From Chloroflexota bacterium (GTDB taxonomy: Bacteria > Chloroflexota > Dehalococcoidia > JACPEP01), in the NCBI GenBank assembly GCA_016183425.1, contig JACPEP010000026.1, forward strand, positions 1 through 64,000: a DNA stretch of 64,000 nt. The letters run 5' to 3'. The number at the start of each line of letters is the position of its first letter. Positions within the stretch are counted from its first letter, which is position 1. Both the position numbers and the translations under genes were made by a program. Below the pieces are notes generated by a model, which ran no database searches, was not told where the DNA came from, and saw only the letters and a list, made by a program, of their open reading frames with translations. Of this stretch, positions 36,915 through 45,661 are shown piece by piece.

Positions 36915-38531
36915 CTAGGCCAGCCACACAGTCTTGAAACGGGGCTTCCAGTCGGGGTACACCACGTAGTTCCTCACCTTCTTGCTCGTGGCTTGAAGGT
37001 TCATTTCATAGAGAAGAGGTATTTGGGCGTGCACCTCGTCCACGACTTTCTTGAGCATTTGGGAGTAGAGAGGTCGTGCCTGCTCCCGGGCGTAGGTGGT
37101 GTCCGCCTTCTCAATGAGGGCATCCAACTCTGAATCCTTGGCCCTCCCCAGGTTGAGGCGGGCGCTGCTGTGGAAGAACTGCATCATGAGGTAGTTGGGG
37201 TCCGAGGAGCCGCCGCCGGTGGTGCTGAGCCAAGCATCGGCATCTCCCTTCAGCACCCGGTCGATAACGGTGGTCTGCTCCAGCAACTGGATGTTCATGG
37301 TAATGCCCACCTTTGCCAGTTGGTTCTTGACTGCCTCGGCCACGGAAACGGCTCCGGAATGGGCCGTGGACACCAGGACATCGAACTTGAATCCTTCTGG
37401 CTTGCCTCCCTCCGTTAGCTTGGCCTTGGCCTGAGCCTGGTCATAGGGGTAGCCCTTGACGCTGGCATCGAAGGCCCAGATGGCGGGGGTGAGGGGGGCG
37501 TTGGCTGGGGGCAGAATGCCATTGAAGATCTTGGACAGGGCCTCCCGGTCTATAGCGTAGGCGATAGCCTGGCGCAGGGGCTTCTTGTCCAGGTCGGCTC
37601 GCTTGTGGTTTAGGTATAGGGGCATCCAGGAGATACCCGGCAGCACCATGACGTTCAGGTTTGAGTCACCCTTAAGGGGCCCCAGGTCTTGGGTCCGAAC
37701 TTCAGCCAGGAAGTCGACCTCTCCGGTGCGCAGGGTTGTGACCTGGACGGTAGGATCTGGGATGACCCGGTAGTAGATCTCGTCCAGATAGGGAAGGTCC
37801 TTCTCCCAGTAGCCGGGGAACTTCTTGAGTGTTATGTGGTCGTCCATCACCCAGTCCACAAACTGGAAGGGGCCGGAGCCCACCCCTTTAGTCTTGAGGT
37901 TCACCCCATCTTTCACCGCCTTGGGGGAAAAGATGGCGCTGGTGCGGTGAACGAAAACGTTGTAGAAGATGGAGGCGCTGGGTTTTTTGAGGGTGTACTT
38001 GACGGTGTAGTCATCCACCACATCGAAGGAGTTGAGTAACTCCAGTTGTCGCACTCCCCGGGACTTAGTGGCAGGGTCTCGGTGACGGTCGTAGTTGGCC
38101 TTCATGGCGGCGGCGTCGAAGGCGGCGCCATCATGGAATTTGACGTCCTTTCTCAGTTTGAATATGTATGTGGCAGGGTCGGGCGCCTCCCAGGACTGGG
38201 CCAGCTCCGGCACCGGTTCATCTTTAGGGTTCAAGCCCGCTAAGTTTTGATACATTTGGAGGAATTGGTAGTAATCGTAGCCGCCCTCAGTGGTGGCGGG
38301 GTCGAAACCGGAGGGGTTGGAGGGAATGGCGAAGCGGAGTCGGCCGCCCGAGACGGGCTTGGCCGGTGTCGGTGTTTTGGCCGCCGTGGGGGTAGCCGCC
38401 GGCTTTGTCTCTACCGGAGTACATGCCAGAAGGGAGGCACCCGCTAATCCCAACCCCGCCCCGGCTGCCGTCCGCAGTATCTGGCGTCGAGATAGGCGTC
38501 TTCCCAGAACCCGGCTCCAGTAGTCATTCAT
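36915..38531 (-). CDS. Family 5 extracellular peptide/nickel-binding lipoprotein
   Basis: A 538-residue ABC-type substrate-binding protein (DppA/OppA/NikA family, SBP_bac_5). The start chosen is the ATG at 38531 (AAAGGAG upstream); the longer ORF merely overlaps the preceding gene. The N terminus has a Tat-like SRRQILRTAAGAGL and a lipobox LLAC, followed by a proline/threonine linker, so it is exported and lipid-anchored. Family motifs are FKLRKDVKFHDGAAFDA and LRQAIAYAIDREAL. No permease or ATPase genes adjoin. It is downstream of the nitrogenase-like operon, and binding of a peptide product or a metal chelate is possible but unproven. Confidence 0.85.
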   Translation of the reverse strand: MNDYWSRVLGRRLSRRQILRTAAGAGLGLAGASLLACTPVETKPAATPTAAKTPTPAKPVSGGRLRFAIPSNPSGFDPATTEGGYDYYQFLQMYQNLAGLNPKDEPVPELAQSWEAPDPATYIFKLRKDVKFHDGAAFDAAAMKANYDRHRDPATKSRGVRQLELLNSFDVVDDYTVKYTLKKPSASIFYNVFVHRTSAIFSPKAVKDGVNLKTKGVGSGPFQFVDWVMDDHITLKKFPGYWEKDLPYLDEIYYRVIPDPTVQVTTLRTGEVDFLAEVRTQDLGPLKGDSNLNVMVLPGISWMPLYLNHKRADLDKKPLRQAIAYAIDREALSKIFNGILPPANAPLTPAIWAFDASVKGYPYDQAQAKAKLTEGGKPEGFKFDVLVSTAHSGAVSVAEAVKNQLAKVGITMNIQLLEQTTVIDRVLKGDADAWLSTTGGGSSDPNYLMMQFFHSSARLNLGRAKDSELDALIEKADTTYAREQARPLYSQMLKKVVDEVHAQIPLLYEMNLQATSKKVRNYVVYPDWKPRFKTVWLA

Positions 38532-38599
38532 AGTGTCTATAACTCCTTTCTGAATGGCCCTAAAGACTCTTTGGTATTTGCCCAGAAAAAGAGGACCTC

Positions 38600-39013
38600 T
38601 TAATCCCCTTCTGCCTTCACCCGAAAGAGAACGGTGCCGAAGCCGCCGCACTCCATCCCTACGTCCAGACAGCGAAAATGGTCGTACCACATCTCCCCAG
38701 GCTCCTGGCCGGCCATGAGGCGGTCTATAAGCATGAAGGTGAACGGTACCAGGGGCGCTAGGGCCCAGAGGCAGAGCTTGGCCGTGCACTGGGAGGCCAG
38801 CACCGTGCCTCCGGCGGAGAGGACGAGTCGCTGACCGGGGGATAGCTTGGCGGCGCAGTGGTGGGCCTCCTCCACCTCAGCCACCAGCCGCCAACCAGAG
38901 AGCTTAGCGAAGGCCGCCGCCGATTGCCACTGGCGTGGCCTGAGGGCAGCCATCTGGTCGTCGCTATAGCCGAAAATGGTCTTCACCCGCGCCCGCAGCT
39001 CTTGGTCGGCCAT
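38600..39013 (-). CDS. TIGR04076-like cysteine-containing small protein
   Basis: A 137-residue cytoplasmic protein from the ATG at 39013 (AAAGGAG six nt upstream). The C-terminal 90 residues follow the TIGR04076 layout: HHCAAKLSPGQRLVLSAGG, then a Cys-containing QCTAKLCLWALAPLVPF helix, then CLDVG and GFGTVLFRVK at the end. That family is uncharacterised. The N-terminal 40 residues form a helical extension. It lies between the hairpin closing the nitrogenase-like genes and the peptide-binding lipoprotein. Confidence 0.6.
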   Translation of the reverse strand: MADQELRARVKTIFGYSDDQMAALRPRQWQSAAAFAKLSGWRLVAEVEEAHHCAAKLSPGQRLVLSAGGTVLASQCTAKLCLWALAPLVPFTFMLIDRLMAGQEPGEMWYDHFRCLDVGMECGGFGTVLFRVKAEGD

Positions 39014-39150
39014 GAATATCTCCTTTCGCCCCAAAATTAAACGTACCTATGATAACACAATGGAAAAGGGCATTCAAGGCATTTTTATGAAAAAAAACAG
39101 ATAATCTTTAGAGAGGAATTTCCTAAGATGGCTAACTTGAGGGAGAAGCG

Positions 39151-39250: not shown

Positions 39251-40111
39251 TCAGGATGCAGCTTGTGACCCATTCTTAGGAGAAGCGAAGCCGCCTCCGT
39301 ATTTGGCGACGATGGGCTTGATCTCCTTTAGAGTAACGATGTTGGGAATAAAGGTCTCGGTGTTGTTTCTGATTTTATTGGCCAGAGCGCGGTACTCGTC
39401 TGCCTGAGGGGAGGCGGGGAAGGCTTGGATGACCGTCTGGCCTTTGAGCTCTGAGTCTTGCACGGTACGGGAGCGGGGGATGTGATGAATAACGGGCACC
39501 CCCATAAGCTCGGCCACCTCTTCCACGATCTCCCGTTCGTGGGGGACTCCCCTCTGGTTGTCGATGAGGCCGGCCACCCCTGTCTCGATGCCCTGTTCGG
39601 CCAGGGTGCGCACCGCCCGGGCGATATTGGTGATCTGGTGCAGGGTCAGGATCTCGCCACAGGTGACGATATATACCTCTTTGGCGTAGCCCGCCCGCAT
39701 GGGCTGGGCGAACCCTCCGCACACCACATCTCCCAGAACGTCAAAGGTGGCCCACTCGATGCCGTGGCGGTCAAAGATGTTATATTTTTCTAACATCTGG
39801 AGGGCCACCAGGACCCCCCGACCGCCGCACCCTACACCGGGCTTGGGCCCTCCCGATTCCACGCCCAAGATACCGTTGTAGCCCTGGTGGACGCAGCTAA
39901 GGATGACCTCTTCTGATACCCCTCTGTCCCGAGTCTCGTCCAGGATAGTGGGCTTCAACAGTCCCCCGCACAGGGTGGCGATGGAGTCCCGCTTGGGGTC
40001 ACAGCCCACCTGCATCACCTTGATTCCCATGTTGGACAGAGCGGCGCTGACGTTGGAGGAAACGGTGGATTTCCCGATGCCGCCCTTACCGTAGAGTGCG
40101 ATCTTTCTCAC
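39251..40111 (-). CDS. NifH-like (NifH/BchL superfamily) iron-sulfur ATPase 1
   Basis: A 286-residue homodimeric-type reductase that would pass electrons from its bridging [4Fe-4S] cluster to a NifDK-like partner upon MgATP hydrolysis. The P loop GKGGIGKST is at residues 8-16, switch I has GCDPKRDS, and the two cluster cysteines are C95 (GVGCGGRGV) and C131 (LGDVVCGGFAQPM). It is as near to BchL/NifH as to any nitrogenase-like group. It follows a second NifH-like gene by 44 bp. Partners are the NifD/K-like genes upstream in the same operon. Confidence 0.9.
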   Translation of the reverse strand: MRKIALYGKGGIGKSTVSSNVSAALSNMGIKVMQVGCDPKRDSIATLCGGLLKPTILDETRDRGVSEEVILSCVHQGYNGILGVESGGPKPGVGCGGRGVLVALQMLEKYNIFDRHGIEWATFDVLGDVVCGGFAQPMRAGYAKEVYIVTCGEILTLHQITNIARAVRTLAEQGIETGVAGLIDNQRGVPHEREIVEEVAELMGVPVIHHIPRSRTVQDSELKGQTVIQAFPASPQADEYRALANKIRNNTETFIPNIVTLKEIKPIVAKYGGGFASPKNGSQAAS

Positions 40112-40155
40112 GCTTTCCCCTCCTGACTACAATCTTTTTTCTTAAATGACACCCT

Positions 40156-40998
40156 TTAGTCCAGGGCCTGATACTTCACCAGGAGGGCGAGGATGTCCTC
40201 AATGGCCACTGGCTTGGGGGCGACTGGCTCGTTGCCGCTCCTTATGTTTTGGGCTAGTTCGCGATAGCGTGCCGCTTGCTGAGAGTTGGGCCTCTTCTCC
40301 ATTACCGTTCCCCCTTCCGACTCCGCCTCCTGCACGGTGCTGTCCCGGGGGATGTTGGCCACTATGGGCACCTGAATCATGCGGCCGAACTCCTCCACCA
40401 GCTCTTCCTCTTTGGACACCCCTCTCATGTTGTTGATGATGCCCCCAACTAACACGGTGGCCTTCTTCCCCTTGTTTATCTCCTCGATGGCCCGACAGAT
40501 GTTGTTTGAGGAATAGAGGGACATAAGCTCGCCGCTGCTCACCAGGTAAACCTCCCGGGCGTAGCCCGCCCGCATGGGCTGGGCAAAGCCGCCGCAGACG
40601 ATGTCGCCCACCACGTCATATATGACGACGGTGGCTCCCAACTCCTGGACGAAGCGGTACTTGGCCAGGTACTCCAGGGCCAGGCTCACCCCGCGGCCGG
40701 CGCACCCCTGTACCGGCGGCGGGCCGCCCGATTCGGCGGTAAAGACGCCCTTGTATCCCGGGATGATGCACTCCTTGACCGCCTCCTTGGTGGCCCCTTT
40801 ATCCAGGGTGTTTTCCAAGATGTTATAATCCGGCAACTCTCCACCCCTAAGGAAGGAGGTGGAGTCGATCTTGGGGGAACAGCCGACTTGGAATACCGTC
40901 TCCCCCATCTCCGCCAGGGCCACAGCCACGTTGCTGGCGATGGTGGACTTACCGATGCCTCCCTTGCCATAGAGCGCGAACTGCTTGACTTCAGCCAT
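40156..40998 (-). CDS. NifH-like iron-sulfur ATPase 2 with altered switch I
   Basis: A 280-residue paralogue of the next gene. It keeps the P loop GKGGIGKST (11-19) and both cluster cysteines, C99 (QGCAGRGV) and C135 (VGDIVCGGFAQPM). Switch I differs: where NifH-type proteins have GCDPK, this one has GC40-S41-PKIDST, replacing the aspartate implicated in coupling ATP state to the cluster. Two divergent reductases beside one DK-like pair suggest either a heterodimer or two separate roles. It lies 29 bp after the NifK-like gene. Confidence 0.9.
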   Translation of the reverse strand: MAEVKQFALYGKGGIGKSTIASNVAVALAEMGETVFQVGCSPKIDSTSFLRGGELPDYNILENTLDKGATKEAVKECIIPGYKGVFTAESGGPPPVQGCAGRGVSLALEYLAKYRFVQELGATVVIYDVVGDIVCGGFAQPMRAGYAREVYLVSSGELMSLYSSNNICRAIEEINKGKKATVLVGGIINNMRGVSKEEELVEEFGRMIQVPIVANIPRDSTVQEAESEGGTVMEKRPNSQQAARYRELAQNIRSGNEPVAPKPVAIEDILALLVKYQALD

Positions 40999-41027
40999 GT
41001 ATACCCCCCTTTAAGACCCTGACCCTA

Positions 41028-42350
41028 CTAGGTCCTGGTCTTGCTCCGGATCCTCTTTTCGAACTGCTCTACCATCAGCTTCCCCTTCTTCTCCAACCCC
41101 ACCTGGATATCCTTGGCCAGAACGGGAATGCCTTTGAATCCCAAATAGGAGCCGCTGCCCGGGGGGCGGATGGGGGCCATGGGGTAAGCCACCGGCACCA
41201 AGGTGGCATTGTACCTCTCAGCGTAGTAGGCCAGCACCCAACTGGTTCCCCCCAGCACCAGATCGACAGAGCTTTTCAGAAGCTCGTTCTGGACGTCGGT
41301 GAGGTTGATGTCCGGATAGACCGTGGGGTCGATGCCTTTCTCCTGGACGATCTTCTCCAGGAGTTCCAAGGATTTCTCGCTGGCGCCGCTGCTAATGCCC
41401 ACGGCGACGGGCTCCATGCCCAGCTCACAAGCGAAATTGGTCATGCCCACAGCCAGCTCGGCGCCCCCTTCTATCAGGACCCGTTTCCCTTTGAAGTCGC
41501 CGTTGAGAGCCTCCAGGGCAGCTTTAGCCTCGGCCCACTCCTTGGCGATGACCTCCTCCGCCTTGGCCTCAGCACCCACCGCCCTGGCCACCGCTCGCAG
41601 CCAGGCAGCAGTGGCCTCGAAACCATAGGGAGTCATCTCGTCGGCACCTGCATAGGGGACGCCGAAACGGTCCTCCATAAGCTGGCAGCAGACCAGGGCC
41701 GATGGCTCCGCCAGGATGACGTTCAGGGCCGCCTGGGGGGCTTTCTGAAGGCCCTCTAGGGTGCTTCCCGCCGTCAGACCGGTGCCCACCTTCAGCCCCA
41801 ACTCGCCGAGAAGCCGCTTGGCCTCCTCAAAGTGGGCATCGTCCCGGAACCAACCCACCACGTTGACCTGGTTCTCCGCCTTCTGCTCGGGCTCTTCCAT
41901 GATGTCGTTGACCAGCTTTTCGAAGGTCATGTTGTAGCCATCGATGACCTTGCCTTCGTAGCCACAGGTGGGGACGGCGATGAGCTTGGCTTCCACCTCG
42001 GGTCGCATGAACTCCACCACGTCCTCGATGTCCTCACCGATGGTCTGACTGGCGCAGGAGTTCAGTACGGCGATAAGGCTGGGGTGGTACATATGGTCTG
42101 CCTGAGCGATGTACTTCTTCAGCTTCTCCTGGGCACCGAAGATGACATCGTTGTCCACCAGAAGGGAGTTCCGCATTTGGAGCCCCTTGCCCACACTCAT
42201 GGCCGATACGGCGATGGGCAGCGTTTGGCACCCTGGTGGGGAGTGGAGGAGGATCAAGGCCAGCTTGATGGCGTCAATGGCATATTGGGCGCCGTGTACC
42301 ATACACGGCCCCTGGGGTTCGGCCATGGCGGTGCTCTTTACAGTCCTCAT
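41028..42350 (-). CDS. NifK-like (nitrogenase-type component) protein
   Basis: A 440-residue member of the nitrogenase component 1 family (oxidored_nitro). Three cysteines fall in the NifK P-cluster positions: C16 (GPCMVHGAQYA), C41 (SPPGCQT) and C99 (NSCASQTIGEDI). It is short at the N terminus, as in BchB or CfbD-like proteins. It has no extra C-terminal domain. Its ATG lies 2 bp after the stop of the NifD-like gene, so they are probably made in equal amounts and form a heterotetramer. The substrate is not known. Confidence 0.88.
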   Translation of the reverse strand: MRTVKSTAMAEPQGPCMVHGAQYAIDAIKLALILLHSPPGCQTLPIAVSAMSVGKGLQMRNSLLVDNDVIFGAQEKLKKYIAQADHMYHPSLIAVLNSCASQTIGEDIEDVVEFMRPEVEAKLIAVPTCGYEGKVIDGYNMTFEKLVNDIMEEPEQKAENQVNVVGWFRDDAHFEEAKRLLGELGLKVGTGLTAGSTLEGLQKAPQAALNVILAEPSALVCCQLMEDRFGVPYAGADEMTPYGFEATAAWLRAVARAVGAEAKAEEVIAKEWAEAKAALEALNGDFKGKRVLIEGGAELAVGMTNFACELGMEPVAVGISSGASEKSLELLEKIVQEKGIDPTVYPDINLTDVQNELLKSSVDLVLGGTSWVLAYYAERYNATLVPVAYPMAPIRPPGSGSYLGFKGIPVLAKDIQVGLEKKGKLMVEQFEKRIRSKTRT

Positions 42351-42352
42351 TT

Positions 42353-43885
42353 CTATCCTGCCCTTTCGCTGGCTTGCCGGACAGCGGCCAGTTCTTCTTC
42401 GGACAACGGCTTGTGATGCAGCCAGATGGGGTGGCCCTTGGGGTAGATCTTGGCTCGCAGCTCGTCCAACTCCGGCGGCAATGTCACCTTCTCTGGCATC
42501 TTAAGGGTGCGGCTGATATCCCGGACGAACTTCACCGCGCCGTGGAAGCCGAACCAGGGCTCCTCGTAGCGCATCAAGTCCATGACGCAGCTATCGCCCC
42601 CCATCTCCAGCACCACACGCTGTACGATGTCCGGGGGCAACCCTCTGTAAGCGGCCAGGTCCGGTCGTCGTTTGGGGACGGGACGGGAGCCGATCTCCAG
42701 CTCTGGCTTCAGCTTTTCGTAGGCAAGCTGTATGCTCAGCTCGTCCTGGCGGTCCCGCATCAGTATGGCGGGAGGCTCCAGGCCATTTTCCTTGGCCACC
42801 TTCTCCACTATGGGCAAGTACCGGCCAACGCCGGCGGCCATGGAGATGATAACGGGGTTCGTCCCCAGCTCGGCCAGGTAGCGGTAGATAGCGATGGGCT
42901 GAGTGAAGCCAGCGCCCACGGCCACCCGCTTCCCTTTCAAGAGTTCTCTCTGCTCCGCGATGGCCGCCTCCGCCTTAGCCGTCTCCTCCTCTACCAGTTT
43001 TTTGGCTTCCTTCTCCTTACCAAAGAAGGCGGCGATATTCATCACCCATTCTTCGGTTACCTTGATCCCAATCGGGGCCATGCCGGGGGTGTAGTAAGGG
43101 ACACCGAACTTCTCCTGCATCCGCTCGGCGGCATGGATGGTGGTGCAGTCGCAACGCACAGCGTTGAGCATGGCCTCGGGGGCCCGCTCTACCTCCTCCC
43201 GGGTGGCGCCGGCGGTGAGGACGCAGTTTACCTCGATGCCCAGTCTCTCCAGAGGCCAGATGAGCTCCTCAATCTGCAATCGGTTGGGGGTATGCTCTCC
43301 CAGAATGTTGACGGAGTTGGGCCGCTTCGTCTTGGCCGGTTTCATTACCTCGTCGATGAGGGCATCGTAGACGGCGATAAACTCGTCCCGATGGTTGACG
43401 GGGATGGGATCTCGGTAGGCGTAACCGGCGCTGTGGACGGCCAGCACCTTGGCATCGATTTTTTTCTCGGCCTTCCTGGCTACCGCTTTAATATCCTCAC
43501 CGATGAGGTCAGCGGAGCAGCCGGTGAAGACCCAGATGATCTCCGGCGGGCCGGAGTCCTCGGGGTGAAGCGGATAGTCCCGGACGTTGTTGTAGACATC
43601 GTAGATGGTTTGCTCCAGTTTTTCGGCGCCGCCATAGATGATGTTCTGCTTGTCCATGGCGGTGCTATATATCCTATAAGCGGTAGGATAGGGCGGCCCT
43701 TGGCTGTGGAACAGGGTCAGGAATTCCTGGATGGCCCAAGCACAGCCCCGGGCAGCGTGGATGATAACGGCGGTTTTTCTCATGGGGGCCGCGGCCCTCA
43801 TGACAAAGAAGAGCCAGCAGGTGTCATTGGGCATGTGCCACGGGAGCTCTTCGTGCCCTACGGGAGCCTTCTCTGTGGTTGCCAT
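42353..43885 (-). CDS. NifD-like (nitrogenase-type component) protein
   Basis: A 510-residue component 1 family protein starting at ATG 43885 (the TTG six bases earlier is less likely; AAAGGAGGG lies upstream). P-cluster-type cysteines are C23 (NDTCW), C48 (ARGCAW) and C123 (TGCSADLIGEDI). C245 in VRCDCTTIHAAERMQEKFGVPY-like sequence aligns, by spacing to the following (E)KxG(I/V)P motif, with the NifD cysteine that binds FeMo-co, but the FeMo-co histidine region (NifD GPYHG) reads EPWFGFHG. It is thus neither a true nitrogenase nor an obvious BchN. The PqqD/precursor genes lie just upstream. Confidence 0.88.
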   Translation of the reverse strand: MATTEKAPVGHEELPWHMPNDTCWLFFVMRAAAPMRKTAVIIHAARGCAWAIQEFLTLFHSQGPPYPTAYRIYSTAMDKQNIIYGGAEKLEQTIYDVYNNVRDYPLHPEDSGPPEIIWVFTGCSADLIGEDIKAVARKAEKKIDAKVLAVHSAGYAYRDPIPVNHRDEFIAVYDALIDEVMKPAKTKRPNSVNILGEHTPNRLQIEELIWPLERLGIEVNCVLTAGATREEVERAPEAMLNAVRCDCTTIHAAERMQEKFGVPYYTPGMAPIGIKVTEEWVMNIAAFFGKEKEAKKLVEEETAKAEAAIAEQRELLKGKRVAVGAGFTQPIAIYRYLAELGTNPVIISMAAGVGRYLPIVEKVAKENGLEPPAILMRDRQDELSIQLAYEKLKPELEIGSRPVPKRRPDLAAYRGLPPDIVQRVVLEMGGDSCVMDLMRYEEPWFGFHGAVKFVRDISRTLKMPEKVTLPPELDELRAKIYPKGHPIWLHHKPLSEEELAAVRQASERAG

Positions 43886-43940
43886 GGGCAACCCTCCTTT
43901 CCTAGACTAGAACCGAGTCCGATGGCGGACTCACGTCTTC

Positions 43941-44108
43941 TCAGTTCAGGCAAGCGCCGCAGTTAACACAAACCGGGCAGTTGCCCAGATCGCTGGTGCT
44001 GGCCACCAGCTCCGCCACAAAGTCGTCCTGGCTTTTCTCCACGAGACACGGCGACTCGTAGGTGTTGCGCTTGGCGGCCCAGGCCACCAAATCCACTTGC
44101 TTTGCCAT
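43941..44108 (-). CDS. RiPP-like precursor peptide 2 with CxxCxxCxxC tail
   Basis: A 55-residue peptide with a strong AAGGAGG site 5 nt before its ATG. The leader is residues 1-35 and includes TYESPCLVEKSQDDFVAEL, which fits YxxPxL and matches the leader of the upstream peptide. The tail from residue 37 on reads STSDLGNCPVCVNCGACLN, with C44, C47, C50 and C53 at exact three-residue spacing. Such a tail could bind an Fe-S cluster or be modified at the cysteines. It lies 55 bp before the NifD-like gene. It is too small to have been noticed by size cut-offs. Confidence 0.8.
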   Translation of the reverse strand: MAKQVDLVAWAAKRNTYESPCLVEKSQDDFVAELVASTSDLGNCPVCVNCGACLN

Positions 44109-44122
44109 GGCTCCTCCTTGCT

Positions 44123-44338
44123 CTACCCTCCTGCTACCGCAGAATCGGACGGCACACCTGGGGATTGGGAACCCCGGGTTAGCTCGGCACTACAGGCCGG
44201 CGAGGCATTAAAGGCAAAACTAGCTTCGGCCACTGCGGAGTCTGTATGCGCCAACTCCGCCAGGAAGTCATCTTGAGTCTTCTCAATTAGGGCGGGAGGC
44301 TCATAGTTTCCCTTGGGGGCGGCTGCTTTTGGGGCCAC
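44123..44338 (-). CDS. RiPP-like precursor peptide 1
   Basis: A 71-residue peptide starting at GTG, with TAGGAG nine nt before it that begins inside the stop of the PqqD-like gene, so translation is coupled. The leader includes NYEPPALIEKTQDDFLAEL, aligning residue by residue with peptide 2 (YxxPxL then (I/V)EK(T/S)QDDF(L/V)AEL). The tail is different: it is rich in Ser, Ala and Pro and has a single cysteine. Leader conservation with tail divergence is the usual pattern of RiPP precursors sharing one modifying system. Confidence 0.72.
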   Translation of the reverse strand: MAPKAAAPKGNYEPPALIEKTQDDFLAELAHTDSAVAEASFAFNASPACSAELTRGSQSPGVPSDSAVAGG

Positions 44339-44350
44339 AGCTAATTACTC

Positions 44351-44647
44351 CTATGGCGAGTTGATAAAGCCTTGTTCCTGCATTTGGACGACGAACTGGG
44401 ACAGATCCTGGGCCACTGCCGTTGCATCGGCCTGGGGATATTGGTTCTGCAATCGCTCTCGAATCTGGCCCAGGGTGGTTTTGCCGTCACAACTGGAGAG
44501 GATGAGATAAGAGGAGGAGTTCAACTTGAAATATCGGAGATCTTTGCGGTCATATAGCCAGAGGAGCCCTCTATCCGCGTCTCCCAGGGCGAAGAGCTCG
44601 TAGCTGCCAGTCAACTGCCACCTGGTGGAGTCTTCTATCTCCGACAT
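44351..44647 (-). CDS. PqqD-like RiPP recognition element (RRE) protein
   Basis: A 98-residue stand-alone PqqD-fold protein. The signature is a beta-hairpin (GLLWLYDRKDLRYFKLNSSSYLIL), then SSCDGKTTLGQIRERLQNQYP, then VAQDLSQFVVQMQEQGFI at the C terminus. PqqD/RRE domains bind precursor leaders; in lasso peptide systems they recognise YxxPxL, the motif present in both small peptides just downstream. It is first in the operon, about 100 nt after the predicted transcription start. Confidence 0.85.
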   Translation of the reverse strand: MSEIEDSTRWQLTGSYELFALGDADRGLLWLYDRKDLRYFKLNSSSYLILSSCDGKTTLGQIRERLQNQYPQADATAVAQDLSQFVVQMQEQGFINSP

Positions 44648-44738
44648 CCTGACCTTCCCGATTTCGCCACGCCCCCTGCGCCCGGGTTGCCTACCCTCAA
44701 CTCCAAAGAACCTATCTCCACAATACGAGGAGACATTG

Positions 44739-44786
44739 TGTGACCAAAGTCACAGGTATGTTACCACAGTCATTAGGGGTTGTCAA
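44739..44786 (-). promoter_or_regulatory. Operon promoter with palindromic operator at +1
   Basis: On the minus strand: -35 TTGACA (44786-44781), 17-bp spacer, -10 TAACAT (44763-44758), and a perfect palindrome TGTGACTTTGGTCACA (44754-44739) over the start of transcription. A repressor bound there would block the PqqD-precursor-Nif-like operon. The same TGTGA-N6-TCACA frame is found before the regulator gene at 45566-45581. FNR/CRP-type proteins also bind this consensus, so the protein is not settled. Confidence 0.7.
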
Positions 44787-44886
44787 GGATTTTCCAGTGA
44801 AAAAATTAAAATGCGTAGAAGTTGTTTTTTCTTTCACAACTTAAGGAAAGCCTTCATGATAATAGCCCAGAGGGATAGGGGAGTTC

Positions 44887-45552
44887 TTACGAGGAGAGCG
44901 CCTCCCCTTTGGGGATGTGGATGACGTAAAGACAAAAGCCGTCGCCTTTGGCCTGACAATGGGTTCGTTCCACCTCTTGGTACTGGAGGGCCTCTTTTTG
45001 AAAGCTGAGATGCCATTCGCAGAGTTCTGAATGGGCCTCGGCGACGCGCATGTAGGGACAATTGTAATCGCGAATTTCAAAGCCCTCTTCTATCTTCTTA
45101 TAGGTAGAGATGCTACCCCGCTCGCTGGCGATCCGACTTACGGTAGCCACTCGATCCGCTAAGCCTTGCCCCTCAAAGCGATCCGCCAGGCCAGCCACCA
45201 TGCGATGGGCCAGTTTGCGAAAGAGGAGAGCCACCATTTCCCGCCCGTCCCGGCCCGCCAACTCTTCCCGGGTCAGGCCCTTGGCCTCTTCCAGGATGCG
45301 GTGAGCCAGGCGGCGATAGCTGCGAGGAAATACTTCCTCCCCCAGGGGAGTCAAAGAGTACAGGTAGTGGGGACGACCGCTGTGGCGACGTACCTCCTGG
45401 GAGCGCACCAGGGCGTCCCGCTCCAGCACCGTAAGGTGCTGGCGTACCGTCATAGGGGCCAGATCCAACTCCATCGCCATCTCCTCCACGGTGGCAGTGC
45501 CCTTCCGTCTTAGGATATCCAGGATCTGGCGTCGGGTCATTTGAAGAACCAT
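44887..45552 (-). CDS. SufR-like iron-sulfur transcriptional regulator
   Basis: A 221-residue DeoR/ArsR-type winged-helix regulator. The N-terminal HTH is RRQILDILRRKGTATVEEMA followed by LAPMTVRQHLTVLERDALV and the wing HSGRPHYLYSLT. The C terminus has C165 and C178 (CX12C as in SufR) plus C199 and C207, enough to hold a redox- or iron-sensing Fe-S cluster. It lies 240 bp upstream of the PqqD-like gene on the same strand, and both units carry the same operator palindrome. Autoregulation is likely. Confidence 0.82.
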   Translation of the reverse strand: MVLQMTRRQILDILRRKGTATVEEMAMELDLAPMTVRQHLTVLERDALVRSQEVRRHSGRPHYLYSLTPLGEEVFPRSYRRLAHRILEEAKGLTREELAGRDGREMVALLFRKLAHRMVAGLADRFEGQGLADRVATVSRIASERGSISTYKKIEEGFEIRDYNCPYMRVAEAHSELCEWHLSFQKEALQYQEVERTHCQAKGDGFCLYVIHIPKGEALSS

Positions 45553-45565
45553 CCCAAACCCCCTT

Positions 45566-45581
45566 TGTGATATATATCACA
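45566..45581 (-). promoter_or_regulatory. Palindromic operator before the regulator gene
   Basis: TGTGATATATATCACA is a perfect 16-bp palindrome, 13 bp before the regulator ATG. The 5-bp arms and 6-bp spacer equal those at 44739-44754, but the inner bases differ, as expected if a protein reads the arms. Confidence 0.7.
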
Positions 45582-45631: not shown

Positions 45632-45661
45632 AATATATGCCTAAAGTGTGACTTTTGTCAA
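45632..45661 (-). promoter_or_regulatory. Promoter of the SufR-like regulator
   Basis: On the minus strand: -35 TTGACA (45661-45656), 18-bp spacer, -10 TATATT (45637-45632). The plus-strand reading across the -35 is TGTGACTTTTGTCAAT (45647-45662), a near match to the operator palindrome, so the regulator could cover its own promoter. Confidence 0.6.

Follow-up and report, generated by a model that had tools for sequence, protein, structure and literature searches.

The substrates known so far for the nitrogenase family are small molecules: N2, tetrapyrroles, thioethers and probably a sulfonate. Among the Group IV enzymes, Mar carries a P-cluster together with a NifB-derived cluster (PMC12552129), and C–S bonds are the target of Mar and, as its authors propose, of Isr (PMC12552129, PMC11423573). 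For RiPP pathways, it has been reported that leaders of the W/Y/LxxP/L/I kind are bound by RREs of several classes (PMC12710340), that RREs which are stand-alone proteins bring in the modifying enzyme (PMC7470986) and that PqqD/leader pairs of the Y..P.L type usually have a radical SAM or lasso enzyme as their partner (PMC12710340).

The window studied here (that is, the whole stretch of 64,000 nucleotides that was analysed) belongs to a draft genome of 2.70 Mb in 52 contigs, 95% complete, to which the closest genomes in the comparison set are related no more nearly than by class. Two of these are finished genomes of 1.5-1.7 Mb with a nif operon, in keeping with a place in the Dehalococcoidia (Chloroflexota). 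On the minus strand, from 44647 to 39251, it encodes the following genes, all intact:

44351-44647, minus strand: PqqD-like stand-alone RRE, 98 aa (PF05402, 50.5 bits, cut-off 23.4, E 2.6e-13)
44123-44338, minus strand: peptide 1, 71 aa, GTG start, leader YEPPALIEKTQDDFLAEL, single cysteine in the core, ribosome-binding site AGGAG
43941-44108, minus strand: peptide 2, 55 aa, ATG start, leader YESPCLVEKSQDDFVAEL, C-terminal core CPVCVNCGACLN, ribosome-binding site AAGGAGGAG
42353-43885, minus strand: NifD-like protein D, 510 aa (PF00148, 232 bits), ribosome-binding site AAGGAGGG
41028-42350, minus strand: NifK-like protein K, 440 aa (PF00148, 289 bits)
40156-40998, minus strand: NifH-like reductase H1, 280 aa (PF00142, 275 bits)
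39251-40111, minus strand: NifH-like reductase H2, 286 aa (PF00142, 297 bits)

The initial annotation had placed a PqqD-like RRE, two small peptides with a common YxxPxL leader, D, K and two NifH-like proteins in one minus-strand operon, and this description holds: the profile matches and intact reading frames agree with it, strong ribosome-binding sites precede both peptides and D (for which an ATG start is preferable to the TTG of the ORF list), and the likeness of the two peptides is far beyond that of shuffled sequences (see below). Rfam and PADLOC returned zero matches. Downstream of H2 lies a gene for a small cysteine-containing protein (38600-39034), which has its own promoter-like site and weakly matches TIGR04076 (17 bits against a cut-off of 33).

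Upstream of the operon is a regulator gene, and the start regions of both carry similar elements:

45632-45661, minus strand: sigma-70-like promoter of the regulator gene, TTGACA-18-TATATT, 11/12 matches
45566-45581, no strand: candidate operator 1, perfect palindrome TGTGATATATATCACA, immediately 5' of the regulator start codon
44887-45552, minus strand: SufR-like winged-helix regulator, 221 aa (TIGR02702 SufR, 83.5 bits, below the 178.8 cut-off)
44758-44786, minus strand: sigma-70-like promoter of the operon, TTGACA-17-TAACAT with TG ahead of the -10, 10/12 matches
44739-44754, no strand: candidate operator 2, perfect palindrome TGTGACTTTGGTCACA, immediately past the operon -10

We regard the genes from PqqD to H2 as a predicted single transcription unit under one promoter. 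The exact form TGTGA-N6-TCACA occurs twice in the 64 kb (about 0.03 expected), at the operon and regulator starts, and is absent from the 357 kb of other loci that were compared. A further copy, differing from it at two positions, overlaps the regulator -35. The regulator has C-terminal cysteines at 165, 178, 199 and 207, of which 165, 178 and 207 lie near the SufR spacing, and TGTGA-N6-TCACA is a CRP-type consensus too. The palindromes can be read as a candidate operator common to the operon and this Fe-S-type regulator gene, and the protein that binds them may be another.

The two peptides align locally with a score of 88, the maximum among 20,000 shuffles being 48, and their likeness lies mostly in Y-E-x-P-x-L-x-E-K-x-Q-D-D-F-x-A-E-L, with cores that differ. 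Both thus have the common leader and unlike core of RiPP precursors, and a leader-binding domain is encoded beside them (PF05402, above its cut-off). Among about 1,700 small ORFs at 16 other loci, 2 contain the leader pattern Y..P.L-N6-8-F, which is present in both peptides. No extra peptide copy was found elsewhere in the genome, and no convincing relative in 400 genomes of the phylum; weak matches from 7 genomes of the phylum besides this one were rejected, those that were read being chance frames across other genes. These observations bear on the proposal that a RiPP remnant (that is, an RRE and precursors whose enzyme was lost) came to lie before a nitrogenase-like operon with which it has no working relation. 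The arrangement was found in a single genome, no kin of the RRE, peptides or enzyme were found in the class, and third-position GC is weaker in peptide 1 (0.56) than in its neighbours (0.79 in peptide 2, 0.75-0.81 in D, K and the NifH-like genes); however, none of the three small genes is disrupted and each has a strong ribosome-binding site, the leaders have kept their similarity and the candidate operator precedes PqqD rather than D, and we consider such a chance neighbourhood distinctly unlikely.

The genome encodes no second PqqD and, as there is no further copy of the peptides, the RRE of the operon has no other obvious client. Among solved structures it comes closest to TfuB1, which is a lasso RRE, and to a PqqD, and both matches are weak. 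A search of 393 genomes of the class found no relatives of it, and no similar PqqD stood near the nitrogenase-like loci of the class that were read. PqqD and peptide 1 (44123-44647) share one reading frame, two in-frame stops (TAG and TAA) and a few codons lying between them; an AlphaFold fold of this natural read-through, with no relatives in the input, reached a mean pLDDT of 42 and was set aside as a model of the RRE–leader contact.

The initial annotation also stated that the usual RiPP enzymes are absent. This is correct for the operon, in which, with its flanking genes, Pfam and NCBIfam profiles found no known RiPP-modifying enzyme (more distant genes were read by eye), but not for the genome, which encodes five SPASM radical SAM proteins away from the operon. 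A lasso peptide cluster was ruled out, the B2 protease domain PF13471 being absent from the whole genome while control genomes gave matches. An ordinary RiPP pathway could therefore be envisioned in which PqqD and the peptides are served in trans by a SPASM enzyme, the nitrogenase-like genes being merely co-regulated or acting on an unrelated substrate. Radical SAM enzymes are habitual partners of PqqD/leader pairs of this type (PMC12710340), and a sister nitrogenase-like operon in the same genome (described below) apparently works alone. Yet the SPASM genes all lie away from any RRE or leader-bearing peptide, one of them being in a haem-biosynthesis cluster, and PqqD is tied to D, K, H1 and H2 by the common promoter. 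RRE genes, moreover, usually lie beside the gene of their enzyme. We judge modification in trans to be unlikely.

Cysteines occupy three P-cluster positions in D and three in K; D has a further cysteine at the position of NifD Cys275 (LNAVRC against LNLVQC in an alignment with clostridial NifD), K has none at its cofactor position, and H1 and H2 each keep both [4Fe-4S] cysteines. The genome encodes a NifB (contig C22; 532 bits against a cut-off of 344, C-terminal domain included). Given the six P-cluster cysteines, the cofactor cysteine and the full NifB, it is likely that D and K carry a P-cluster and a NifB-derived cluster, as in Mar. Of the features expected of Group IV, three P-cluster cysteines in each of D and K, a Cys275 equivalent in D and a NifB maturase in the genome are found, and D matches PDB entries 9fmg/9d9u at 2e-19, our tree (below) being built without Mar sequences. 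The position aligned to the histidine ligand of the cofactor (His442/His429) is not histidine in the operon or in its sister; in Mar, the cofactor histidine sits in another loop (PMC12552129). Four PF00148 proteins are encoded in the genome, namely this pair and the sister pair, and no true NifDK or NifEN. D scores 112 bits against TIGR01282 (cut-off 654) and K scores 74 against TIGR01286 (cut-off 427), and both fall far under the cut-off of every curated Nif, Bch, Cfb and Vnf/Anf model, on which grounds a true nitrogenase and CfbCD, BchLNB or BchXYZ were ruled out. The nifB gene (locus L050, 244-1809), whose product has a C-terminal NifX-like domain, adjoins a corrinoid-type ABC transporter and cobalamin genes and is beside no nitrogenase-like operon.

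The sister operon (contig C17, locus L035) has the identical gene order D-K-H1-H2 and shares the CSPK of H1, whereas the operon in the window adds PqqD, the peptides and the operator palindrome. The reductases are 65% (H1) and 72% (H2) identical between the two, and K and D merely 50% and 47%. A tree that included the nitrogenase-like proteins of the class joins the D pair and the K pair each at 100/100 and sets them apart from true NifDKEN and other nitrogenase-like groups, and the branch of K in the window is longer than that of the sister K (0.69 against 0.26). It is as if the reductases had been conserved while D and K diverged, as would be expected if the substrate had changed. The initial annotation held that a near-constant lack of the PqqD-like gene and peptides from homologous operons would refute a link between peptide and enzyme, and this was borne out in part: the only close homologue, in the same genome, lacks both.

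Relatives beyond this pair are few. No third relative of D above about 35% identity was found in some 900-930 Chloroflexota genomes, and none at all in two scans of 85,000 genomes (one with a single sequence, one with a motif-masked query), which depend on exact short motifs and are, with their low sensitivity, weak negatives. Viral and plasmid searches found nothing with D, PqqD or the peptide and only ordinary Nif proteins, at 24-28%, with K. Another, uncharacterised nitrogenase-like pair, with about 35% identity in D, is found at loci L036 (3356-8374, genome G070) and L078 (genome G159) and stands beside radical SAM proteins in G070.

Both operons have two NifH-like genes. In H1 (40156-40998 in the window, 5469-6302 in L035) serine replaces the switch I aspartate, giving CSPK for CDPK, and H2 has the normal CDPK; an H1–H2 heterodimer or a two-step reductase is possible. 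At the cofactor position, the sister K (L035, 6344-7687) carries a cysteine (GVLLCEP) that is missing from the K of the window (NVILAEP; 41028-42350), and in the sister enzyme a cluster may be anchored by both D and K. Flanking the sister operon are LarA-like (nickel racemase type) and divergent cupin genes (L035, 3001-4281 and 9995-10774; named by eye), which are possible clues to its substrate.

The end of peptide 2, CPVCVNCGACLN, resembles a ferredoxin-like cysteine motif, and the peptides could accordingly be carriers. The CPVCVNCGAC of peptide 2 would bind [4Fe-4S] or a different metal, and the peptide, docked through PqqD, would supply the nitrogenase-like enzyme with electrons or a cluster in the manner of a minimal tethered ferredoxin. 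The C..C..C..C pattern of its core occurs in 1 of 2,881 small ORFs, the operon has no ferredoxin gene, and CVNCGAC differs little from CIACGAC, a ferredoxin loop maquette able to assemble [4Fe-4S] (PMC12412533). However, no Pfam ferredoxin model matched peptide 2 even at E 10, peptide 1 has the same leader and one cysteine, so that at most one of the peptides could serve, and the sister operon does without a peptide of this kind. Nor are RREs generally known as docks for ferredoxins. A carrier role, though the strongest competitor of the reading that we favour, seems to us somewhat unlikely. In a second variant, the cysteine-rich peptide would be a metallophore that is matured, exported and returned by an orphan family-5 ABC substrate-binding protein, feeding metal to the enzyme; the gene of such a protein, which resembles peptide/nickel binders, does lie 0.5 kb downstream of H2 (36915-38789). 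Against this, no permease, exporter or peptidase gene stands alongside, and a separate promoter-like site lies between the operon and the substrate-binding protein gene, and we regard a metallophore as highly improbable.

We instead favour, tentatively and at somewhat less than an even chance, a NifB-dependent Group IV-type reductase whose D and K became coupled to a ribosomal peptide and reduce its cysteine-bearing core. The nitrogenase-like enzyme is the only enzyme on the predicted transcript and its relatives act on C–S bonds, which leads to this peptide-directed reading. D and K would have arisen by duplication from the sister D-K-H1-H2 operon before this coupling. PqqD would bind both peptides by their YxxPxL leader and bring them to D and K; H1 and H2 would pass electrons, driven by ATP hydrolysis, to the P-cluster and on to the NifB-derived Fe-S cluster in D, which would reduce the C-terminal core or a group carried on it. 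The chemistry would most plausibly be C–S or other sulfur chemistry, as in Mar and Isr, and the product probably stays in the cell, given that the operon has no exporter or peptidase gene.

Of the link that the initial annotation proposed between peptide and enzyme, the functional connection is likely, as judged from the shared promoter and candidate operator, the sole PqqD, NifB and the diverged D and K relative to the sister operon; the close homologue without the module speaks against it. Counted against the peptide-directed reductase are its occurrence in one genome only, the SPASM enzymes encoded elsewhere and the sister operon, which presumably works without peptide and RRE. The broader statement, that a leader-bearing peptide brought by a PqqD-type RRE serves an enzyme of the superfamily either as its target or as its guide to the substrate, we hold to be possible but rather less than evenly probable; if it is true, RiPP maturation would gain a new class and the nitrogenase superfamily its first macromolecular substrate. 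If functional, the operon would bring the nitrogenase family either such a substrate or a peptide that carries electrons or metal, and RiPP biology a very low-potential reductase, with the sister operon, which has no peptide module, as a natural control within one genome.

We know of no system that combines an RRE and precursor peptides with a nitrogenase-family enzyme, and we found no report in the open-access literature searched of an RRE or PqqD paired with a nitrogenase-like enzyme; on the evidence of its sequence, the pairing is real in the one genome in which it was found. It resembles PqqA/PqqD, lasso B1 and StsC in having a small PqqD-family protein beside small Y..P.L-leader peptides, but no radical SAM, lasso B2/C, YcaO or LanM gene adjoins it. 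Compared with the lasso leader consensus, YxxPxLxxxGxF, the phenylalanine lies two residues further on. With MarHDK and IsrHDK (Group IV), the operon shares the HDK architecture, the six P-cluster-position cysteines, the cofactor cysteine in D and the expected dependence on a NifB-type enzyme; it differs from them in the location of NifB, in having two NifH-like reductases and D and K proteins outside the curated families, and in the addition of an RRE and two precursor-like peptides.
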